Shown: positions 7,509 to 20,154 of the stretch, piece after piece
Position numbering within the stretch: position 1 is the stretch's first letter
How the letters are laid out: each line of letters opens with the position of its first letter
Source of the DNA: Candidatus Zipacnadum vermilionense
GTDB lineage: Bacteria; Armatimonadota; Zipacnadia; Zipacnadales; Zipacnadaceae
Assembly (NCBI GenBank): GCA_029821755.1
Contig: JALGSV010000002.1
Span: 82,591 to 146,590 of the forward strand
Length of the DNA: 64,000 nucleotides
Direction of reading: 5' to 3'
Made by a program: the position numbers and the translations under genes
Notes under the pieces: generated by a model
The model's database searches: none
Seen by the model: the letters and a program-made list of their open reading frames with translations, nothing else
Told to the model about the DNA's origin: nothing

Positions 7509-9079
7509 ATGTCCCGCTCGTACTCGGAATACAGCGGGTCCCTTCCGGCGAGATAGTAGCCCCGGAGGAGTTTCTGCAGCCAGACGCGACGGGCGGGGGA
7601 TGCGGACTCCTGCTGGAAGAGTGGGTCGTTCTCTGGGACCAGGATGAACCGGGGGCGGGTGCGGCAGACGTCGGCGAGCAGAGCCTGGGAGGGTTCGGCC
7701 AGGGGGCCCAGCAGAGGGCGGAAGCGGGGGAGGTTGGACTCCAGGGCGCCGCTCCAATAGTGCTCCAGCACCAAGTAGCGCGAGGCGGCGCGGCGGCCAC
7801 TCCAGAACAGGACGGCGGGGTTGTGGGAGAGGACCAGGATGCGGTCCTCCGGCCCGGTCGCGGCGGCCAGACGGGCCCCGACCACGCGGCTGACCTCAGT
7901 CTCCTGCGAGGCGAAGACCCGGTCGCGCCACCGCCAGGCGGCTCCCCGTAGCGGCTCGCCCAGTCCCAGCGCCAACGCGACCATTACCACAGCCACGAAA
8001 TACCGACGCCAGGAGCGGTCTGGAACAGCCCTCAGGCCTCCGCGCAGACCCAGCGCCGCCAGTACCGCCACCGGCGCGGCCGCCTGGGTCATGTGGTAGG
8101 CCAGGGCCTGCCCGCCAGCCAGCAGACCGAATATCCCCGCTAGAAGCCAGAGAGAGACGATCTCACGCCCTGCCCCTTCTCCTTGCAGCACGGGCGGCGT
8201 TGCAGGGCGTCGGCTACCTTCCGCGCCCTGCACCGTGCGGCCCTCGCGCCAGACCCACACCGCCCCGACGAGCCCCAATGCCCAGATCAGCGCCACCGGA
8301 GGGATCATGGAGGTGAGGAGCGTGCTCCACGTCCCCAGGCGATCGGCCAGGCTCAGGTGCTGGCCGGCGGAGGGGATGATCCACGCCCAGGCGAGGTAAT
8401 CGTGGAAGGTACTGTAGCGCGCAATGAGCAGAGCGACGAGCGCCGCCCCGGCCAGCACGCCCAGCAACAGCGGCAAGCAGGCGCGGCGGGCGCGAGAGGC
8501 CAGGGCCGGCTGGCGGGTGAGCCATAGGCAAGCGAGCACCAGGGCGGCCAGGTCGAGCAGCGCCACTTGCTTGACCGAGATGGCCAGCACCAGCAGGACG
8601 CCGGAGAGTGCCGGGAGCAATCGGGAGGCGCGCTCGCCGCTGGTGAGGTAGCTCACCAGCGCCAAGTAGCCCGCGGCCGCCAGCGCCGCCATGATCAGGT
8701 CCATCTCCAGCGAGGGGCCCAGCGTCTGGGCCAGGAAAACCAGGGCGAGGGCCGCGGCGGGGAAGGCCGCCTCCCGCCCGCCTATCCGGCGCGCCAGACC
8801 GGCTACGCACCACAGCACCACCCCTACCAGCGCCAGGCCCAACAGGTGCAGGGCGACCAGGCTGTAGTGGGTCGGTCCCAGGACCGCAGCGTAGAGGAGG
8901 TAGCCCAGCGGGCCCTTCCAGTCGGCGGCGTCGGCGTAGAGGCGGGCGCCCTCCAGCACTTGCCGGGCGACGGTGCTGTTGATCGCCTCGTTGACGAAGA
9001 GGAAGCCCCGCGCCGGAGGCCAGAGCACCAGGGCCAGCAAGCCGAGCATCACCCACTTGACCCACGCGCGTGAGGTCAT
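7505..9079 (-). CDS. GT-C glycosyltransferase (ArnT/PMT-like, polytopic membrane)
   Basis: The 524-residue protein has about ten or more hydrophobic helices separated by short charged loops, then a soluble C-terminal tail. That is the usual architecture of GT39/GT83-type lipid-linked sugar transferases. The first loop (NEAINSTVARQVLEGARLYADAADWKG) follows the family layout 'acidic residue ... LLEGxxxYxDxxxxKxP'. Such enzymes use polyprenyl-phosphate sugars on the outer face of the inner membrane. The acceptor is unknown. Start ATG 9079 (MTSRAWVKW) is preferred over GTG/ATG options upstream because the extension is arginine-rich and not family-like. A weak GGAAAG lies 12 nt upstream. The gene is divergent from 9244-10032 across 164 bases. 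Confidence 0.72.
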   Translation of the reverse strand: MTSRAWVKWVMLGLLALVLWPPARGFLFVNEAINSTVARQVLEGARLYADAADWKGPLGYLLYAAVLGPTHYSLVALHLLGLALVGVVLWCVAGLARRIGGREAAFPAAALALVFLAQTLGPSLEMDLIMAALAAAGYLALVSYLTSGERASRLLPALSGVLLVLAISVKQVALLDLAALVLACLWLTRQPALASRARRACLPLLLGVLAGAALVALLIARYSTFHDYLAWAWIIPSAGQHLSLADRLGTWSTLLTSMIPPVALIWALGLVGAVWVWREGRTVQGAEGSRRPATPPVLQGEGAGREIVSLWLLAGIFGLLAGGQALAYHMTQAAAPVAVLAALGLRGGLRAVPDRSWRRYFVAVVMVALALGLGEPLRGAAWRWRDRVFASQETEVSRVVGARLAAATGPEDRILVLSHNPAVLFWSGRRAASRYLVLEHYWSGALESNLPRFRPLLGPLAEPSQALLADVCRTRPRFILVPENDPLFQQESASPARRVWLQKLLRGYYLAGRDPLYSEYERDM

Positions 9080-10121: not shown

Positions 10122-11654
10122 TTACCGGAACGCCCCGTGCTGGTTGCTGGCCCAGAAGAAGCAGTTGCGCAGGACTGTCGCCCAGCCATTCCAGTCCCAG
10201 AAGGGGTTATCCTCCGGCCGGGGATCGCCCACGGGGGTGCCGGTGAAGCAGACCACGTAGCCCTTCTCATACTTACGGGCCACCAGGAAGGGCTTCCCTC
10301 CGTCCACCGTTAGCACCACCAGCGCGTCCGGTTTTGGCTGGACATCGTGGTAGTAGTAGCACTGGGGCTTGGAGGTCAGGTCCACGTCCGGCAGCAGGTC
10401 CTCCAGGACCGAGCCGTCCCAGCCCCCGGCGCCGTAGGCCACGTGCCCGCCGAAGATGAACAGTCCTCCCCCCGCGGCCACGTAGTCGCGGAGCTCGGCG
10501 CGCTCCACTACCACGTCGGCCAGCAGGCGCGGCGAGGTGCACTGCAGGCCCGAGAGCCCCCGGAAGGGCAGGGCGACGCTTTCCGCCTCCCACTCCTTGC
10601 CGGCAGGGACGTAGACATCCTCCGCCACCCACTCGGTGGTGTAGGAGGGACCGGCATTGTACAGGAAGCCCAGCACCCACGCGCCGCTATTCGGCGCAAT
10701 CGTGCTGCTCACCAGCGAGTTGCCCAGGACGGGGCGGTTGCCCTGGTCATCGCGCAGGAAGAGCGGGCCGCCGGTGGGGAGGCCCCACTTGCCTCCCAGA
10801 TACGCCTCTACCGCCTGGCGTTCCTCACGGCTCAGGGCCCGGTCGTAGACCAGCACCTCCGCCAGATCCCCGGTCAGGAACTGGTTACCACCCAGCCCGT
10901 GGGCTCCGAGCTTGTAGCGCCCCACTTTGGCGCCCTTGTCGAAAGCGCCCGTCCACTCGTTCTTCACCTGGAACTGATCGTCCATACCGCTGACGTAGCC
11001 CTCTACCGCTTCCCCGCCTGCCACCACGGAGAACACCGCGGGGCTGCCGGTATTGAGAGCATGGTCCTGGAAGCCGGGGTAGTTGCGGATGCGGAACGAC
11101 GTCCCGGAGCGCCCGCTACCACAGGCGGGACCGGACTTGTCGTCCTGGGGCGCCGGCGTCCCGTTGTCATTCTCGAACCACAGGAACACACCATTCTCAT
11201 CCCCGGCCTCCGGACAGGCCACGACGAAGATGGTGTGGGCGTGGGGCAGGGCCAGGTCCTGCGGCGTAGCCAGCCATTGCTTGCCGGCGAAGCGCACGGC
11301 GGGCTTGCCGTTCAGGCCGTCGGCGACCCAGACTGGCTGCCGGGCGGCGTCCGTCTGAGCAGCCGCCCGGTTGTGACCGCTACTGTCGGGCCAGGAGGCA
11401 AGAGCTGCCCCGCTCTGCGTACCGGTGATCGCGTCAGCCTTGAGCCAAAGCAGCAGCCCCTCTAGGGACGGAGCCTGGGCGGAGACCGCGGGACACAGGC
11501 AGACGAGGGCGGCGAGGATCACTGACTCTTGCGCTACCCTCTGCCACCCCCTCCCCTGCAAGGGGAGGGGGCAGGGGGTGAGGCTCCGCGGCCGGCGGCA
11601 CACATGCAGACATCCACAGATCAACCGCATGAGGGAAGCGATGTTGCGGACCAT
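10122..11654 (-). CDS. LamG plus glutaminase-fold (GATase1-like) exported protein
   Basis: The 510-residue protein has a LamG/concanavalin-like domain at about 60-290 (LLLWLKADAITG ... DLAEVLVYDRALSREERQAVEAYL). A GATase1/ThuA-like domain follows at about 300-510 (LRDYVAAGGGLFIFGG ... YVVCFTGTPVGDP). The amidotransferase cysteine position is not conserved (FGGHVAYG), so it is probably a binding or scaffold domain. Start ATG 11654 has GGAGG 9 nt upstream and overlaps the upstream stop as TAATG, implying coupled translation. The first 44 residues contain the translated hairpin repeat (SLTPCPLPLQGRG). The hydrophobic signal segment VILAALVCLCPAVSA lies only after it, so the repeat sits inside the signal-peptide n-region. 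GTG 11522 is an alternative start. Stop TAA. Confidence 0.72.
   Translation of the reverse strand: MVRNIASLMRLICGCLHVCRRPRSLTPCPLPLQGRGWQRVAQESVILAALVCLCPAVSAQAPSLEGLLLWLKADAITGTQSGAALASWPDSSGHNRAAAQTDAARQPVWVADGLNGKPAVRFAGKQWLATPQDLALPHAHTIFVVACPEAGDENGVFLWFENDNGTPAPQDDKSGPACGSGRSGTSFRIRNYPGFQDHALNTGSPAVFSVVAGGEAVEGYVSGMDDQFQVKNEWTGAFDKGAKVGRYKLGAHGLGGNQFLTGDLAEVLVYDRALSREERQAVEAYLGGKWGLPTGGPLFLRDDQGNRPVLGNSLVSSTIAPNSGAWVLGFLYNAGPSYTTEWVAEDVYVPAGKEWEAESVALPFRGLSGLQCTSPRLLADVVVERAELRDYVAAGGGLFIFGGHVAYGAGGWDGSVLEDLLPDVDLTSKPQCYYYHDVQPKPDALVVLTVDGGKPFLVARKYEKGYVVCFTGTPVGDPRPEDNPFWDWNGWATVLRNCFFWASNQHGAFR
11545..11600. repeat. Hairpin repeat, LTPCPLPLQGRG family, copy a (inside a coding region)
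   Basis: The core CCCCTCCCCTGCAAGGGGAG forms a strong stem and is followed by the shared tail GGGGGTGAGGCTC. Related copies lie at 16397, 24068, 41898, 55230, 56566 and 60692. This copy lies within the N-terminal coding part of the gene at 10122-11654. Confidence 0.85.
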
Positions 11655-14010
11655 TACCTACCACCTCCCGCCTGAGTGATCTCGAAAACAACCAGTTTCC
11701 AGTGGAAGACGCACGGCACGCGGACGGTAACCGAAGCCCCCTGGCGCTGCAGCCGCAGGGGCACATGCTGGGGTCGGGGGTCGGACTGCTCGTCCTGCGA
11801 CTCGAACATCACCAACCAAGCGCGGGACACCTGCCATCCCCCTTGTTCCCTAAGCCTCACCGCCACGTCCTTGGCCGGGGGCGGGAATTGGTCATGCGGC
11901 TCCTCGTTGATACCGGCTTTAGCCGGCGGGTTGATGAGGTTGACGACGAGTTGGCGCTCCTGGGGCGAGCGCTGCCGCTGGTAGACGACGTTCTCCCACC
12001 AGACCGGGCGCGCGGATTTCACCTCCAGCCACTTCCCCGCCTCGGCGAGACGCGAGCCGTCCTGCGCATAAACCAGGGCGGAGTACCGCGTGAGGAACTG
12101 CGCGTAGTTGCCGAAGCGCAGGCTGGAGTCATAGTAAGCCGACTGCACGTAGTTGCCGGAGCAGCCGCACAGGACGGTATCGTAGATGCGGTCCACCGCA
12201 TAGGGGCAACCCAGGCGCGTGGGTGAGTAGGGGTTGTAGTACCCGCCCCGCTGCCGGTGCCACTCCTGCAGGTCGGCGTTGTACTGTAGGTAGGCGGGCC
12301 ACATGCGGTAGGGGTTACTCGCTTGGTACGCCGCGTAGATGCATTCGTCCAGGATGTACCCCCGCCCTGATCGCGCAGCTCGTTGGTCAGCGGGTAGTTC
12401 TTGATGTCCTCGGTAGACCCCGCGTTGTAGCCCCAGTAGAAGCCGGGTATCGCCTTGTTGATCTTGGCCTTGAACCGCTTGAGCATCTTCGCGCTAATCT
12501 AGTCGGCCTCCGGGTAGTCGCGCGCTACAATCTTGCCCTGCCACTCAGCGTAGCCCGGCCACACCGTGACATGGAAGTCCCAGCGCAGGCCGGGGAATTG
12601 GAAGATATTGTGGGCCGCGATCACCTGCTGCGCCGCGTAGTTCACGGTGTCCTCACGGGCGTAGTTGGGCACGCCGTTGAAGGTGCCGATATCGGTCAAG
12701 TCCAGCCCATAGGCGCTGGCCTGCTTGTGCTTCCAGAGCTGGTAAGTGTCATAAGCCCCCAGCACGTCGCTGGTCAGCGAGTCGCACAGGAACCACTCCG
12801 GCTTGCGCTCCAGCCAGTACTCCATCCTCGTGGACCAGGAATACCCATCAAAGTACGGCGTCCACAGGATTCCCTGCTTGGCCATCTCCCGCCCTACCGC
12901 CAGAATCGTGTCCCGGAAGCCCCGGTGCCAGCCCCCGCCGTAGCTCATCCAGGCCCCGCGCGTGTCGTACTGGTCAAAACCCGCGCCCGGCGCGTACAGG
13001 CTGCTGGCCTCGGACTTGTTGCAGTAGTCCCGGCGCATCCAGGAGACCATCGCGGCCACCGTGCGACTGCTCATTGGGAGCTGCTGGAGGAACTGGGCGG
13101 TGTCATGCCGGTAGGCCATGTCGATAGCGCCCTCCACCGCTACCCGCTGGGCGTTGGCGTGGACCTGGCAGTACTCACGGTTCTCGTCCAGCTTCCGCCC
13201 GCCGCTCCAGGCCTCCCCGCGCACCTCCAGACCGTACTGGAGCCGCCCGGTTTTCCAGGGCAGCGCCACCTCGGCCCGCTCCCGCGCCTCGAGAGTGAAG
13301 GCCTGCTTGCCGATTGGCTTTGTATCGGTCAACTCGCCGTAGACAGCGCAACGGACCTCGCCGGTCTGGGGGGTGTCGGTGGTGTTCTGGAGGGTGACGG
13401 TGACGGTGGCCTGCTCGCCCGGCCGGGGGGCCTGGTCCGGGACGGGGTTGACCTTGATCCAGTCCACCGCTCTCGCCGGCGCCGGCCCGCTGGCCGGGGT
13501 GGTGCTGGACCAGTTGTGACCGCTGTCATTGCGGTGGATGTTCACGTCCACCTGTTTGGGGAAGCCGGTGATCTCGAAATCGAAGGGAAACTCGACCCAC
13601 CCGCCGTCATAGCCGGGGAAGCGCCAGCCGTAGGCATTGGCTACCGACACCAACTGGAACTGCGTCCCGAGCGTGTCGGCCAGGTCGACCACCCGCACGG
13701 AGAAGCACCGACCGATCGGGTCGAGCTGGTCCTAGCGGAAGCGCAGCACACCATGGTAGCGACCGGGCGCGGGCTTCTGCAAGACGGTCTCGATCAGGAG
13801 CAGACCTTCCTGTCCCTCGGGGACCGTGACGTACTTGCCGTCCCCGGCCTGGGCCTCGTCGGTGATGGTCAGCTTGTCGTGAGGCACTAGCGAACACTTC
13901 TCGGCCTCCAGCGTCTGCTCCCCCGGTGCCTGGGCCAGAGCCGGGACCAGACCCAGGAGGAGCAGCAGGACCGGCGCCAATATGCGCCAGGTACGCGTAC
14001 AGCTCAACAT
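11654..14010 (-). pseudogene. Exported barrel hydrolase-like protein, broken by two TAG codons and one frameshift
   Basis: Reading from ATG 14010 (GGAGG 10 nt upstream) gives a signal peptide ending ...LVPALA, a beta-sandwich region, an Ig-like domain (RPGEQATVTVTLQNTTDTPQ) and a (beta/alpha)8-type domain. The barrel resembles the one encoded at 16373-18376. In-frame TAG codons occur at 13732-13734 and 12499-12501, with family-like sequence continuing in the same frame past each. A single base is missing in the C5 run at 12359-12363. Restoring it joins QGGG to YILDECIYAAYQ and gives about 785 residues. The final TAA overlaps the next start (TAATG), showing that 11654 is the true end. The family is uncertain; a glycoside hydrolase-like (GHL or GH66-like) barrel is my best guess. 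It may be a real pseudogene, a recoded gene or sequence error. Confidence 0.65.
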
Positions 14011-14489
14011 CGGACATCAACCTCCTCAAGGTACCGGCGCTAGTGGTAGCTCCCCCCAGGGCGAGGGGAACCTCCCAGGCCTTCGCCGGAAACTTGCACT
14101 CAGGAGCCGGAGGGAGCGACCGCGGAGGAAGCGGGCCGTTGCCGGGCACCGCCGGGTCGGCGTTGATGGCGTGAACCAGGGCGGCATGAGCCAGGTCGGT
14201 TGGCCGGCTGCCAGGTGTGCCCGACGCGTACCTGGCGCCATATTCTCCCGTCGTCGGACAGCAGTACGCCCGAAGCTATCGGGCGTGACCTCCATTTGCC
14301 GGTAAGGGGCCAGGCGGTTTCAGGAGGGGCCGCGATGAGTTGCGCACGAAGTGCGCCGCGAATCCGGCCCGCTCCCGGCGGCCGCAGGGAGGAGGACCGC
14401 GAGACGGCCGCGAAGAAATCCTTGGTGGTCGTGTACCCCCGAGCCGGGCCGTCCACCCCCTTTCTTACCGAGCATCTTGGAGGCTGCTG
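14011..14489. other. Divergent intergenic region of the central locus
   Basis: This 479-base gap separates divergent genes starting at 14010 and 14490 and should hold both promoters. I see no convincing -35/-10 pair. It contains the 45-bp repeat at 14326-14370 and a GC-rich stretch with gcggccgc and cggccgcg half-repeats at 14378-14420. No conserved ORF is supported. Confidence 0.5.
14326..14370. repeat. 45-bp dispersed repeat, copy 1
   Basis: It runs from GGGGCCGCGATGAG to AATCCGGCCC with an internal TGCGCACGAAGTGCG hairpin. The copy at 48854-48898 differs at two positions by eye. The first bases resemble the ends of the MITE-like elements at 34556 and 38078. Confidence 0.8.
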
Positions 14490-16376
14490 ATGCTTCGTCA
14501 CCGAGGATTCACCGCGATAGCCATGAGCCTGCTGCTGGGTGCGGGCTTGGCCTACGCCGCGAGCGCCGCCCTGACGGTGGGCGGTACGGGACCCACCTTC
14601 ACCGTAGAGAACGCCTTCTACCGGCTGAAGATCGACACCACCCAGGGCGGGGTTATCCGCAGCTTCCGATACCTGGAGCAGCCGGACGGCGCTGACCGCG
14701 AGTGGATCTACCCCACCGGCGGCGGGCTGCTGGAGGATATGGTCTGGCAACAGCGCCACCCCGGGGAGCTGCAGAACGAGCCGTATGAGTACCAGGTGCT
14801 CCAGAACACGCCCTAGGTCTTCTCGATTGAGATGTGGCGAGCCCTGCGCGACCAGAGCGCCGACCTCAAGGGTCTGGTGATGCGCAAGGTCCTGACCTTA
14901 CGCGGCGACAGCCCCGCGCTACGAGTGAAGATGACGCTGGAGAACACCTCGGACGCTCCGCGCTTCCCGGGGGCGTGGATCCAGAACCGCTTCTACTGCG
15001 GCGGCGAGAAGGGCATCCAGGTAGCCTATCGCCCCTCCAACCTGGGGATACGCATGGTCTACGTGGAGAACGACCGACGCTATGGCGACGAGTTCGTGCG
15101 CCGGCCCTCCGCCGGGTGGGCCATGACCTTCGACCGCGACTCCGAGATAGGCCTGCTGGCGCTGGTGGACCACAACTACCTCAAGATGCACTACTCCTGC
15201 ATCACCATGTACACCACGGAGTGGTTCTACGACCGGGTGTTGATCCAGCCGGGCAAGTCCTGGACTACCGAGTACACGCTGGTGCCGGTGCAGAACGTCC
15301 ACAACTGCTACTACGCCGACGAGCAGGCAATCATCACCGCCGCGCAAGAGGGCGACACGCTCAGCCTTCAGTTCCGCGCCACCCAGGCCCCGGTGGCCGA
15401 ACTGCCCATCACGGTGAAGATCGAGAAGTCCGACCGCTCGGCGGTGCTGGCTGAGACGCGGGCGAAGCTGACCAACCTCACCCGCAACGACCGGCAGGCC
15501 CTGGAGTTCCCCCTCCCCGGCCTAGGTCGCGGAGCGGTGATCATCAGCCTGCAAGTGGGCGCCGGGGCCGGGCAGCGCTCCACGGAGTTCCTCTACTCCA
15601 GCGACGAGGACGCCTACTACGCCCCGGAGTCGGCCTCCCCCTACCGCGCTCCGCTGCCGAAGAAGATCAAGCCGGAGTTGATGGGCCAGCGCGACCTGAC
15701 GCTCACTCCCCATGAGGGCCTCTCGGTGCTGCATGGCGTGGGCCTCTGGTATGAGTACAACCGCATCAAGGAACTCCTGCGCAACCTCTCCCCCGGCGTC
15801 AGCTTCCGCGACTCCTTCTACACCTCCGGCGTCCTGGGTCCCGAGCTGACCTACCAGCCGCTGCTGGCCGAGGAGCTGATGGGCTACGACCTGATCGTGC
15901 TGGACAACGTCGGGGCCAACGCGCTGGGCGACGAAGGCGAGATCGCGGTCAAGCAGTACGTGGCGACCGGGGGACGTCTGCTGCTGACCGGCGGGCTGTG
16001 CACTCTCGGCAAGGGCCGCTTCCAGGAGAGCGCTTTGCAGGAGGCGCTGCCGGTGCAGCCGGACGGCTACTTCGACATAGTCCGCCTGCCCCAATTCGCG
16101 CCTGTGACCGGCGCCGCCTTCGACACCGGCGAGGTCCAGTGGATTCAGTCCGTGCAGGCTGTTCGCCCCGGCGCGCAAGTCCTGCTGACGGTTACCGACA
16201 AGCCGCTCCTGGTGCGAGGTCAGTACGGGAAGGGCCAGGTCCTGGTGTAGCTCGGCACTCCCATGGGCGACCCGCCTGCCGGTGTCACGCCCTACTGGGA
16301 GAGCCGCGGCTGGTTCCGGGAGATACGCGCGGTGTTGGGGGAGATGCTCACTGCGGGGGTGAGGCGAGAACCATGA
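14490..16376 (+). pseudogene. Mutarotase-like plus glutaminase-fold exported protein with two in-frame TAG codons
   Basis: ATG 14490 has GGAGG 6 nt upstream and a signal peptide (MLRHRGFTAIAMSLLLGAGLAYA). The N-terminal half resembles a galactose-mutarotase-like sandwich (GGVIRSFRYLEQPDG). The C-terminal part is a GATase1-like domain (YVATGGRLLLTGGLCTLGKG). TAG interrupts the frame at 14814-14816 and 16248-16250. After the second TAG the frame continues LGTPMGDP, aligning with GTPVGDP in the 10122-11654 protein and GPPLGEP in the 18400-20154 protein. Read through, the gene is exactly 629 codons and ends in a TGA that overlaps the next start as ATGA. That strongly implies 16376 is the original end. 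Nonsense decay, base-call error and amber recoding all remain possible. Confidence 0.7.
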
Positions 16377-18376
16377 GTAGGTCTCTCTCCCTTCCCTGGC
16401 CGCTCTGTCTCCCCCTCTCCTGCAAGGAGAGGGGGCAGGGGGTGAGGCTCGGCGGCCGCCTGCGCATATGCAACCATGCCACGGCCCACGGGACCCTCAC
16501 GCTGCTTCTCCTGCTCACCGCTTTGCTGGCGACCGCCGCCTCCGCCGACCTGGCCGTGCAGGTCTGGCCGGAGAAGCTGCAGGTCCGGCCTGGTGAGCCG
16601 GTGCAGTTGCAGGTAACGGTAACGGGCTTGCCCGCCGGGCAGACCGCCGCGGTGCACTGCCGGGTGGAGCGGCTCCTGGGCGCCGCAGCGGCCCAGTTCG
16701 ACGGCACCACCGACGCCGAAGGCAAGCTCGTCTTCACCTACAAGCCGGAAGCGGAGTTCGGCTATGAGGCAGTGGCCGAGGCTACGGCCGGTCAGGAGCG
16801 CGCCACCGGCCGGGAGGTCTTCGCCTGCGCTCAGAACCCCTGGGCGGCGTGCGTGTCCTATGGCGGCGACTCCTTCCGCTCCTGGAACCAGCCGCAGCCC
16901 GGCGAGGAGATCGACCCCTACCTCGCCCAGCGCCTGGCCGACTGGGTGGCCAATTGCCGCTTCTTCTACTCCTCGGTCTGCGAGATTCTGGGCATGGCCT
17001 ACGACCCCTTCAGCAGCGTCTTGCCGCCGCCGGGAGTGGACAACTACTTCTCCGGCCAGGGCGACACGGTCTACAAGGGCTCGGTCATCGGCCTGCGCCG
17101 GCTCATCGCCGACCTGCATGCAAGCGGCATCTACTCCACCATCTACGTCAACTCGTCGGTCTCCGGCGTAGGCGGGACCGAGTTTGCCCGCCGGCACCCG
17201 GAGTACCTGACCTTCAGCCGCGACGGCACGGTCTTCGGCGGCATCTCCACCACCACGCTGCCGCTGCTCCAACGCTTCTACTGTGAGTACCCCGCCAGCC
17301 TGACCAACCCGGACTTCCGGCCGATCATCGACAGCATCCGTCCCGGGGGGTTACACATCGCGCCGCTCAACTTCGAGGACCCGGCCCTGATTGACGTGGC
17401 CATCAAGTCGCTGACGGAGGGGCGCAAGGTGCTGGGGTACGACGGGGTACGCTACGATGGACACTACTGCGTCCCCGCCATCGGCGACCCGCTGGCGCCC
17501 TCCAGCATATTGACGGACTACACCGGTAAGCCGCAACCTTCGGTGCAGGCGGGAGACGCGCTCACCGCCCGCAACATGCGCAAGGCGATGGGCGAGGTGC
17601 GCAAGCAGTACCCGGACTTCCTCTTTGGCTTCAACTGGGCGGGCTTCCGGCCCGACCCGGGGGAGTGGGCACTGCAATCCCAGGAGGCCCAGGCCATCGC
17701 CCCCGGCAGCTACATCCTCGATGAGGTCGCCAAGGGCGCCGGGAACTCGGCCAGCCCGGACAACCGCTGGGAGGACTTCACCCGCAACATGTGCGAGCAG
17801 GGCGACCGGGCGCGCAAGTTCGGCGCCTTCCTCTTCGCCGGTTGGGGCGGTGGGCCCGGCTATAACGAGGTGGACACCCGCTGGATCAAGGCCTTCTCCT
17901 GGGCCTCGGGGGCGCGCTGGATTCCCGGCAGCGACCGCGAGAACCGCGAGGGCACCCGCCTGTACAACCAGTTTGCCTGCCGCTACAGCCAGTTCCTAAT
18001 CAGCAACGACCTGCAGCGTCTGCCGCAGGCGCAAGCCGCCCAACTGGTGCAGGTCTCCGCGAGCCGCCCGGTACTCTACGACCGCTTCGTCCAGCGCCTG
18101 GAGACCAAGCAAGGGAAGTACCTGGTCATCCACCTGATCAATTCGCCGCTGGAGGAACGCATCACCACCAAGGCGCAGGCGCCACCGCTCGCGGAGACGG
18201 TGCAGGTGACGCTGGCGGCGGAGCTATTCGCGGGCGGCCAGCCGCAGCTCGACCAGGTCCGCGTCCTCAACCCGGACGCCACTCCCCAGTGCCAGGTCGT
18301 GGCCGCCGAAGCCGCGCCGCTCGCGCTGCCGGTTCCCTCCTTCCAGTACTGGACTGTGCTGGTAGTTCCGTACTAG
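16373..18376 (+). CDS. Exported (beta/alpha)8-barrel protein, GH66-like
   Basis: The 667-residue protein starts at ATG 16373, overlapping the previous stop (ATGA), with GAGG 8 nt upstream. Residues 1-50 hold a translated hairpin repeat (PLCLPLSCKERGQGVRLGG); the real signal segment TLTLLLLLTALLATAASA comes after it. An Ig-like domain (PGEPVQLQVTVTGLPAGQ) and a barrel follow. Candidate catalytic asparates lie in VLGYDGVRYDGHY, laid out like GH66 or GHL barrels. The C-terminal beta domain includes YLVIHLINSPLEE. The related broken gene at 11654-14010 has the same order. GTG 16442, downstream of AAGGAG inside the repeat, is an alternative start that would give a normal signal peptide. The substrate is unknown, presumably an alpha-glucan or similar polysaccharide. 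Stop TAG. Confidence 0.68.
   Translation: MSRSLSLPWPLCLPLSCKERGQGVRLGGRLRICNHATAHGTLTLLLLLTALLATAASADLAVQVWPEKLQVRPGEPVQLQVTVTGLPAGQTAAVHCRVERLLGAAAAQFDGTTDAEGKLVFTYKPEAEFGYEAVAEATAGQERATGREVFACAQNPWAACVSYGGDSFRSWNQPQPGEEIDPYLAQRLADWVANCRFFYSSVCEILGMAYDPFSSVLPPPGVDNYFSGQGDTVYKGSVIGLRRLIADLHASGIYSTIYVNSSVSGVGGTEFARRHPEYLTFSRDGTVFGGISTTTLPLLQRFYCEYPASLTNPDFRPIIDSIRPGGLHIAPLNFEDPALIDVAIKSLTEGRKVLGYDGVRYDGHYCVPAIGDPLAPSSILTDYTGKPQPSVQAGDALTARNMRKAMGEVRKQYPDFLFGFNWAGFRPDPGEWALQSQEAQAIAPGSYILDEVAKGAGNSASPDNRWEDFTRNMCEQGDRARKFGAFLFAGWGGGPGYNEVDTRWIKAFSWASGARWIPGSDRENREGTRLYNQFACRYSQFLISNDLQRLPQAQAAQLVQVSASRPVLYDRFVQRLETKQGKYLVIHLINSPLEERITTKAQAPPLAETVQVTLAAELFAGGQPQLDQVRVLNPDATPQCQVVAAEAAPLALPVPSFQYWTVLVVPY
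16397..16470. repeat. Hairpin repeat, LTPCPLPLQGRG family, copy b (inside a coding region)
   Basis: Stem CCCCCTCTCC-TGCAA-GGAGAGGGGG plus the tail GGGTGAGGCTC, with homology to copy a continuing to about 16470. It is read in the orientation opposite to copy a relative to its gene, yet keeps the frame open. It carries AAGGAG followed 12 nt later by GTG. Confidence 0.85.
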
Positions 18377-18399
18377 TCCGTTTCTCAGGAGACGGCCCG

Positions 18400-20154
18400 A
18401 TGCGCACGGACCGCGCGTGGATCGCTGTTGTGTTGGTTGCCCTGCTGCTAGTCGGTCGCGGCGCGGCGGCGGTGGCCGCGCCTGCTCCTCTCTGGGGCCC
18501 CAACCTCATGCCCAATCCCAGCCTGGAGGAGGTGGACGACCAGGGCCGTGGTGCCGGTTGGGTCCTCGCTCATCACGGCGCGAAGGCGGGGACGCTAGGC
18601 GTCTCCGACGACGCCTGCGCCGGCCGGCGCTGCCTGCTGATGGAGTACCATGCCGAGGAGGGCCAGCCGGTAGAGCAGATCAGCAACCAGGCCTTTGGGC
18701 CGCTGGTCCCGACCGAGGAGGGCTGGTACGTGGTGCTCTTCTGGATGCGCGCCGACTACCCGGAGGGTGCCCAGCCGGAGGGGCCGGCCATGGTCTACCT
18801 CCGCCACCGCGGCGGGCCCGACAACCAGCAGGATGCCGGTCCGCCCGTGTACTTCTACTTCGGCAGCATGGCGGATATCGCCGGCCGCTGGCGCTACGCC
18901 TTTGCCCTCGTCCACCAGCGCCCCGGCCAGACGGCCCTGCAGATGCAGGTGCCCCAGGGCGGACAGTACCGCCTGCGGGTAGATGCCGTCCAGGTCCGCC
19001 GCCTGCTCGTGCCGGAGGTCAAGCAGCCCCTGAACGTCAACGAGATCCGCGATTCGTACTATGGCGGCGCGTCGGTCCGCGATCCCCAGGCCTCCACCGG
19101 CCTGGCCTGGAAGGTGACCGAGGGGCTTTTCCCTGCCGGCTCCAAGATCATGGGGCCGGAGCGTTCCAGCGAGCTGCCCGGCCTGTACCGGGCGACTTAC
19201 CGCTTCAAGCAGCAGGTCGCCGGCAAGCAGAGCCTGCTGCTAACCCTCTCCGGTGGGGGCGGACAGACGCTGGAAGACGTCATGCCCGGGGACTTCGCCG
19301 CCAACGACAAGTACCAAGGTACCGGGTACCAAGACTTCCCCGTCTACTTCCTCTACCCCTTCGGCAGTGGCAGCTTCTACTCGTGGGCATGGCGCGGGGA
19401 GGGCACCTACTTCTTCGACCGCCTCAAGCTGGAGCGTCTGCAGGGACTGACCTACCGCGAGGCCTGGGACCTGCTGTATGAGGGCGTGGACCCGGATAAG
19501 GTCCTCCCCAAGCCAGCCGTAGCCGCTGACCCGCCCGCCACTGCCCAGCCCCGAGCGTGGCTGGCGTACGGGCTGTACACGGACACGGCGAAGGTGGAGC
19601 AAGCCCTGGCCGGGGCCGGGGTGGAGACCAGCGTCTCGCATATCACCCCCCAACGCCAGCTGACTCCGCCTTTCCCGGACCTGGCCGGCTACCGCCTGGC
19701 CGTGTTGGCCGACGTCCCGGCGCGGCTAGTGGACCCCACCGGGCAGTACCTCCTGATGCGCTGGGTCAACCAGGGGGGCGGACTGGTGGTGCTGGGAGGA
19801 CCGCTGGGGTACGGCTATGGCGGGACGCCGGGTAGCTTTATCGGCAACCTACTCCCGGTGGACAACGACCAGACCTTCAACCTGTACCGCCTGGACCAGC
19901 CCGCGCCGGTTCTGCGCCCCAACGGTGAGAAGCTGGGCAACGCGCTCTGGCTGCACCGGGCCACCCCTCGGGACCAGGCCAAGGTCCTCCTCACCGCCGG
20001 AGGCCAGCCCTTCGCGGTAGGCTGGCAGTACGGTGAGGGGAAGGTCCTGGCGCTCCTCGGCCCGCCGCTAGGCGAGCCCGAACAGCCCTCCTGGGAGAGC
20101 CCGGCCTGGGTCGGGGAGTTGACCAACCTCATGAAGTGGACGGTGGGAATCTAG
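18400..20154 (+). CDS. Carbohydrate-binding-like plus glutaminase-fold exported protein
   Basis: The 584-residue protein starts 8 nt after CAGGAG, 24 bases behind the barrel gene, with signal peptide MRTDRAWIAVVLVALLLVGRGAAAVAA. The first half is a CBM4/9-like jelly roll beginning LMPNPSLEEVDDQGRGAGWV. The C-terminal third is a GATase1-like domain (YLLMRWVNQGGGLVVLGG ... KVLALLGPPLGEP) without a nucleophile cysteine. It is the third protein in this divergent locus to end in that fold. The domain probably binds or assembles rather than hydrolyses glutamine. Stop TAG; a palindromic element follows 24 bases later. Confidence 0.68.
   Translation: MRTDRAWIAVVLVALLLVGRGAAAVAAPAPLWGPNLMPNPSLEEVDDQGRGAGWVLAHHGAKAGTLGVSDDACAGRRCLLMEYHAEEGQPVEQISNQAFGPLVPTEEGWYVVLFWMRADYPEGAQPEGPAMVYLRHRGGPDNQQDAGPPVYFYFGSMADIAGRWRYAFALVHQRPGQTALQMQVPQGGQYRLRVDAVQVRRLLVPEVKQPLNVNEIRDSYYGGASVRDPQASTGLAWKVTEGLFPAGSKIMGPERSSELPGLYRATYRFKQQVAGKQSLLLTLSGGGGQTLEDVMPGDFAANDKYQGTGYQDFPVYFLYPFGSGSFYSWAWRGEGTYFFDRLKLERLQGLTYREAWDLLYEGVDPDKVLPKPAVAADPPATAQPRAWLAYGLYTDTAKVEQALAGAGVETSVSHITPQRQLTPPFPDLAGYRLAVLADVPARLVDPTGQYLLMRWVNQGGGLVVLGGPLGYGYGGTPGSFIGNLLPVDNDQTFNLYRLDQPAPVLRPNGEKLGNALWLHRATPRDQAKVLLTAGGQPFAVGWQYGEGKVLALLGPPLGEPEQPSWESPAWVGELTNLMKWTVGI

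Follow-up and report, generated by a model that had tools for sequence, protein, structure and literature searches.

Introduction

Belinky et al. 2021 (PMC7918605) proposed natural readthrough of in-frame stop codons in many prokaryotic genes, on the criterion of a dN/dS well below 1 both before and after the stop, and judged most such stops to be short-lived and deleterious. In-frame TAG codons also occur in pyrrolysine decoding. A further point of comparison is the bacterial pseudogene that arises in accessory paralogous families through recent nonsense, frameshift and deletion mutations; its features include multiple independent lesions per gene, an intact counterpart in a sister genome, damage to neighbouring genes and patchy presence in the genus.

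The locus described here lies in a 64,000-nucleotide stretch (hereafter, the window) of contig JALGSV010000002.1 of Candidatus Zipacnadum vermilionense (GCA_029821755.1). Two adjacent, divergent genes, termed A and B, contain two internal TAGs each. The locus resembles the cases of Belinky et al. in that in-frame stops occur in a gene whose sequence bears the mark of purifying selection; here, however, the stops come with a frameshift and with damage to neighbouring genes, and the one close relative that has the gene lacks these stops. The in-frame TAG is shared with pyrrolysine decoding, but neither a PylS above its cut-off, nor PylD, nor a tRNA with a CUA anticodon was found in searches of this genome, and proteins A and B are not methylamine methyltransferases. 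All of the pseudogene features named above are present, and nothing essential differs, although the open frame of a neighbour, gene C, survives its deletions. The internal TAGs are thus very probably a case of ordinary gene decay, with no evidence of an unusual genetic code.

Materials and Methods

The host genome is a 4.39-Mb draft in 115 contigs (95.4% complete), and lesions were read from this draft assembly. The census of terminators and internal stops covered 1.76 Mb, or 40% of the genome. For the detection of interrupted genes, a codon-phase Markov score was applied to a 596-kb sample; a stop was retained when coding signal lay to either side of it and no competing frame scored better. 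A first, loose threshold for coding signal gave 497 candidate stops and was dropped as uninformative. A stricter version of the scan was run over the 1.76 Mb. PylS and PylD were sought in the genome with profiles whose controls scored over the cut-off in one genome. The tRNAs in the Rfam list were read by ARAGORN, and a pattern search for CUA-anticodon tRNAs was added. The share of TAG among nonsense changes was calculated from the codons of genes A and B and of the sister gene.

Results

The interrupted genes

The four TAGs were present where the sequence-only reading had placed them (Table 1), and strong coding signal extended in frame across each one. In the 596-kb sample, coding signal flanked only 13 stops on both sides, and all four TAGs were among these; genes A and B are therefore interrupted genes rather than chance open frames. 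Three of the four passed the stricter scan, the TAG at 16248 failing on too short a tail.

Table 1. Positions of genes, lesions and the repeat copy in the window.
Feature	Position	Strand	Remarks
Gene C	10122..11654	-	510 aa, one open frame; directly downstream of gene A
Interspersed repeat copy	11557..11583	+	in gene C (5' part); the sister gene lacks this stretch
Gene A (broken)	11654..14010	-	secreted glycosidase-like protein; intact 851-aa ORF in sister genome
Gene A, one-base deletion	12358..12359	-	frameshift beside a G run; from sister alignment and coding-phase switch
Gene A, TAG 2	12499..12501	-	sister codon CAA (Gln)
Gene A, TAG 1	13732..13734	-	sister codon CAG (Gln)
Gene B (broken)	14490..16376	+	GATase1-like domain (PF07090); full-length intact paralogs in same genome
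Gene B, TAG 1	14814..14816	+	paralogs mostly E/Q/D, also G, A
Gene B, TAG 2	16248..16250	+	paralogs V/L/M/I/F
Gene D	20194 to about 24020	+	homologous to intact proteins of ca. 1,080-1,270 aa

Two earlier claims stood in part. The interruptions had been described as TAG only, which is accurate for the four internal stops, but gene A is also frameshifted by a deletion. The readthrough ends had been said to overlap the next genes exactly; the strings TAATG and ATGA are in place, but the readthrough of gene A misses TAATG. Its frame stops at 12019, short of 11654, because one base has been deleted relative to the sister gene, and the final part of gene A is read in a different frame. The coding-phase scan registered the switch at 12359, the same place as the one-base gap in the sister alignment. 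Gene A thus carries two nonsense mutations and one frameshift.

The sister gene (same-genus genome G001; L052 1886-4441) is uninterrupted and is 78% identical to gene A over the middle fragment. An ortholog comparison had been suggested as a check, and it found sense codons opposite both TAGs of gene A, as decay predicts. A further difference between the two genes, of 42 bp, is a multiple of three. The Pfam match of gene A to GH66 is weak, covering the C-terminal part (profile positions 405-546; 24.1 bits, cut-off 23.7). The gene A family has 12 matches in this genome. A close copy of gene A occurs in only one other of 101 genomes, a member of the same genus, and the other same-genus genome and the remaining sampled genomes of the family Zipacnadaceae gave no match. 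On this distribution, the genes are dispensable.

Gene B gave no close ortholog, and its lesions were judged against full-length paralogs alone (intact, 632-829 aa, in the same genome). The residues opposite its TAGs were read from these paralogs and from more distant relatives. The gene B family has 17 matches in this genome.

Neighbouring genes

The lesions cluster, but the cluster also takes in genes C and D, which were outside the original finding. Gene C lacks 525, 612 and 87 bp that are found in the sister gene (junctions near 10665, 10494 and 10388), and its dN/dS against that gene is 0.147. All three deletions are multiples of three; the chance of three in-frame deletions is ca. 1 in 27. 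In gene D, translated matches fall in frames 2, 1, 3 and 2 in turn (blastx), with changes near 21.6, 23.26 and 23.48 kb. Between B and D lie two apparently intact genes (16373-18376 and 18289-20154).

An interspersed, TGCAAGGAGAGGGGGCAGGGGGTGAGG-like repeat has copies in the window at 8161, 11557, 16421, 24094 and 55251. Copies stand at the edges of gene C, the gene after B and gene D. A total of 49 copies was counted over 1.76 Mb of this genome; 50 kb of the sister had none.

Decoding machinery and the stop census

The check for pylS and amber-suppressor tRNAs that had been proposed came out negative. The best PylS match in the genome reached 22.9 bits against a cut-off of 178, and PylD had no match. 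None of the 45 Rfam tRNAs read by ARAGORN has a CUA anticodon, and the pattern search returned three known tRNAs only; the tRNA search was not exhaustive, in that the draft is 95% complete, the Rfam list lacks one tRNA that ARAGORN found, and the pattern misses a non-canonical T loop or an archaeal-type pylT. RF1 is present (prfA, 462 bits, over the cut-off of 423). TAG is the commonest terminator, as had been noted, ending 441 of 862 long ORFs in the 1.76 Mb; with RF1, this upholds the earlier exclusion of a general reassignment. TAG as a general Gln codon was rejected on the same count of terminators. The codon for selenocysteine is TGA, and this candidate was rejected for that reason.

Coding signal was found on both sides of 32 stops in the 1.76 Mb (14 TAG, 13 TGA and 5 TAA), many of which merely separate adjacent genes that share one frame. 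Nothing sets TAG apart among them. A second gene with multiple lesions (L133 3217-5531, minus strand) lies near the end of contig 53 (380001-387189); three stops (TGA, TAG, TAG) share a frame in it, after which the frame switches and another TGA follows. Damage in this genome is therefore not specific to TAG. Single in-frame TGAs at L166 11142 and L153 8072 (both minus strand) apparently interrupt otherwise continuous coding frames.

Selection, timing and the share of TAG

Gene A has a dN/dS of 0.15 against its sister (dS about 1), and the value stays well below 1 before as well as after the stops; this ratio spans the whole time since the sister split, the interval after loss being too short to measure. 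Other ortholog pairs gave ca. 0.15-0.35, and genes A and C are at or below this range. In gene A, a random substitution has a chance of about 1 in 25 of being nonsense, such that two stops imply ca. 50 neutral substitutions since loss, a small number given a dS of about 1. The low dN/dS thus suggests that the damage to gene A is recent; on a rival reading, the lesions are errors.

TAG accounts for 63-69% of single-base nonsense changes, an estimate that held under every transition bias tried. The probability that four of four stops would be TAG by chance is therefore ca. 0.16-0.23, and the observed set is not above chance expectation.

Discussion

The locus is very probably a dispensable glycosidase-like cluster in which genes have recently become pseudogenes. 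Recent nonsense decay was among the options first listed, and it is well supported by the intact sister ortholog, the frameshift in gene A and the damaged neighbours. We infer true lesions, not base-call errors, and a loss of function. In the proposed course of events, an accessory cluster for secreted glycosidase-like proteins would be undergoing decay in this lineage. Nonsense mutations would have arisen in genes A and B, and in A also a one-base deletion, while gene C would have taken large internal deletions and gene D several frameshifts. All of the stops would be TAG because most single-base routes to a stop in GC-rich genes lead there. The TAGs would be expected to terminate translation via RF1, such that only truncated A and B products would be made. 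Some points weigh against decay. The strong coding signal and low dN/dS of gene A would also follow from function, the fact that the gene C deletions are all multiples of three is not predicted by purely neutral decay, and the genome is a draft.

Errors of assembly or base calling (from low coverage, mixed strains or uncorrected long reads), with the genes intact in the organism, are an unlikely cause. The draft state of the assembly is in keeping with such errors, as are the resemblance of the coding signal and dN/dS to those of working genes and the position of the gene A frameshift next to a G run. Errors would nonetheless have to account for four stop-making substitutions, at least one of which (14814 and 16248 aside) is two bases from the sister, and for the large deletions in gene C and the frameshifts in gene D, all within 14 kb; moreover, intact genes sit between B and D, and few such sites occur in most of the 1.76 Mb sampled. 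It is very improbable that the TAGs are short-lived, tolerated stops with some natural readthrough. Gene A does have the dN/dS pattern that Belinky et al. 2021 (PMC7918605) used, but selection later than the origin of the stops is not visible in that ratio, the loss is compounded by the second stop in each gene, a frameshift follows the stops in gene A, and the same study regards the majority of such stops as transient and harmful. Slightly less probable still is low-level decoding of the TAGs in A and B by a near-cognate or suppressor tRNA, giving a small supply of full-length protein; on that reading, the one-base deletion in gene A must reflect either an error of sequencing or programmed frameshifting.

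Local amber recoding, in which pyrrolysine or a dedicated suppressor tRNA decodes the TAGs, had also been offered as an option, and its probability is now minimal. The uniformity of the four stops and the strong coding signal beyond them are what it would predict, but chance alone would give a TAG-only outcome about one time in five. The negative pyl and CUA-tRNA searches (the latter not exhaustive), RF1 and the prevalence of TAG as a terminator all contradict it. No single amino acid fits the sites, where relatives have Q and Q in gene A and, in gene B, mostly E/Q/D at one and V/L/M/I/F at the other, and the frameshift in gene A is beyond repair by amber decoding. An apparent case of recoding is thereby closed with an ordinary cause. 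As a yardstick, about two thirds of chance nonsense changes in GC-rich genes like these yield TAG, and interruptions by TAG alone in such genes are weak evidence for amber decoding.

Members of the gene A and gene B families often occur as neighbouring pairs, i.e. a glycosidase-like protein next to a GATase1-like protein. Among the sampled members of the family Zipacnadaceae, the expansion of these gene families is common to only one same-genus relative.
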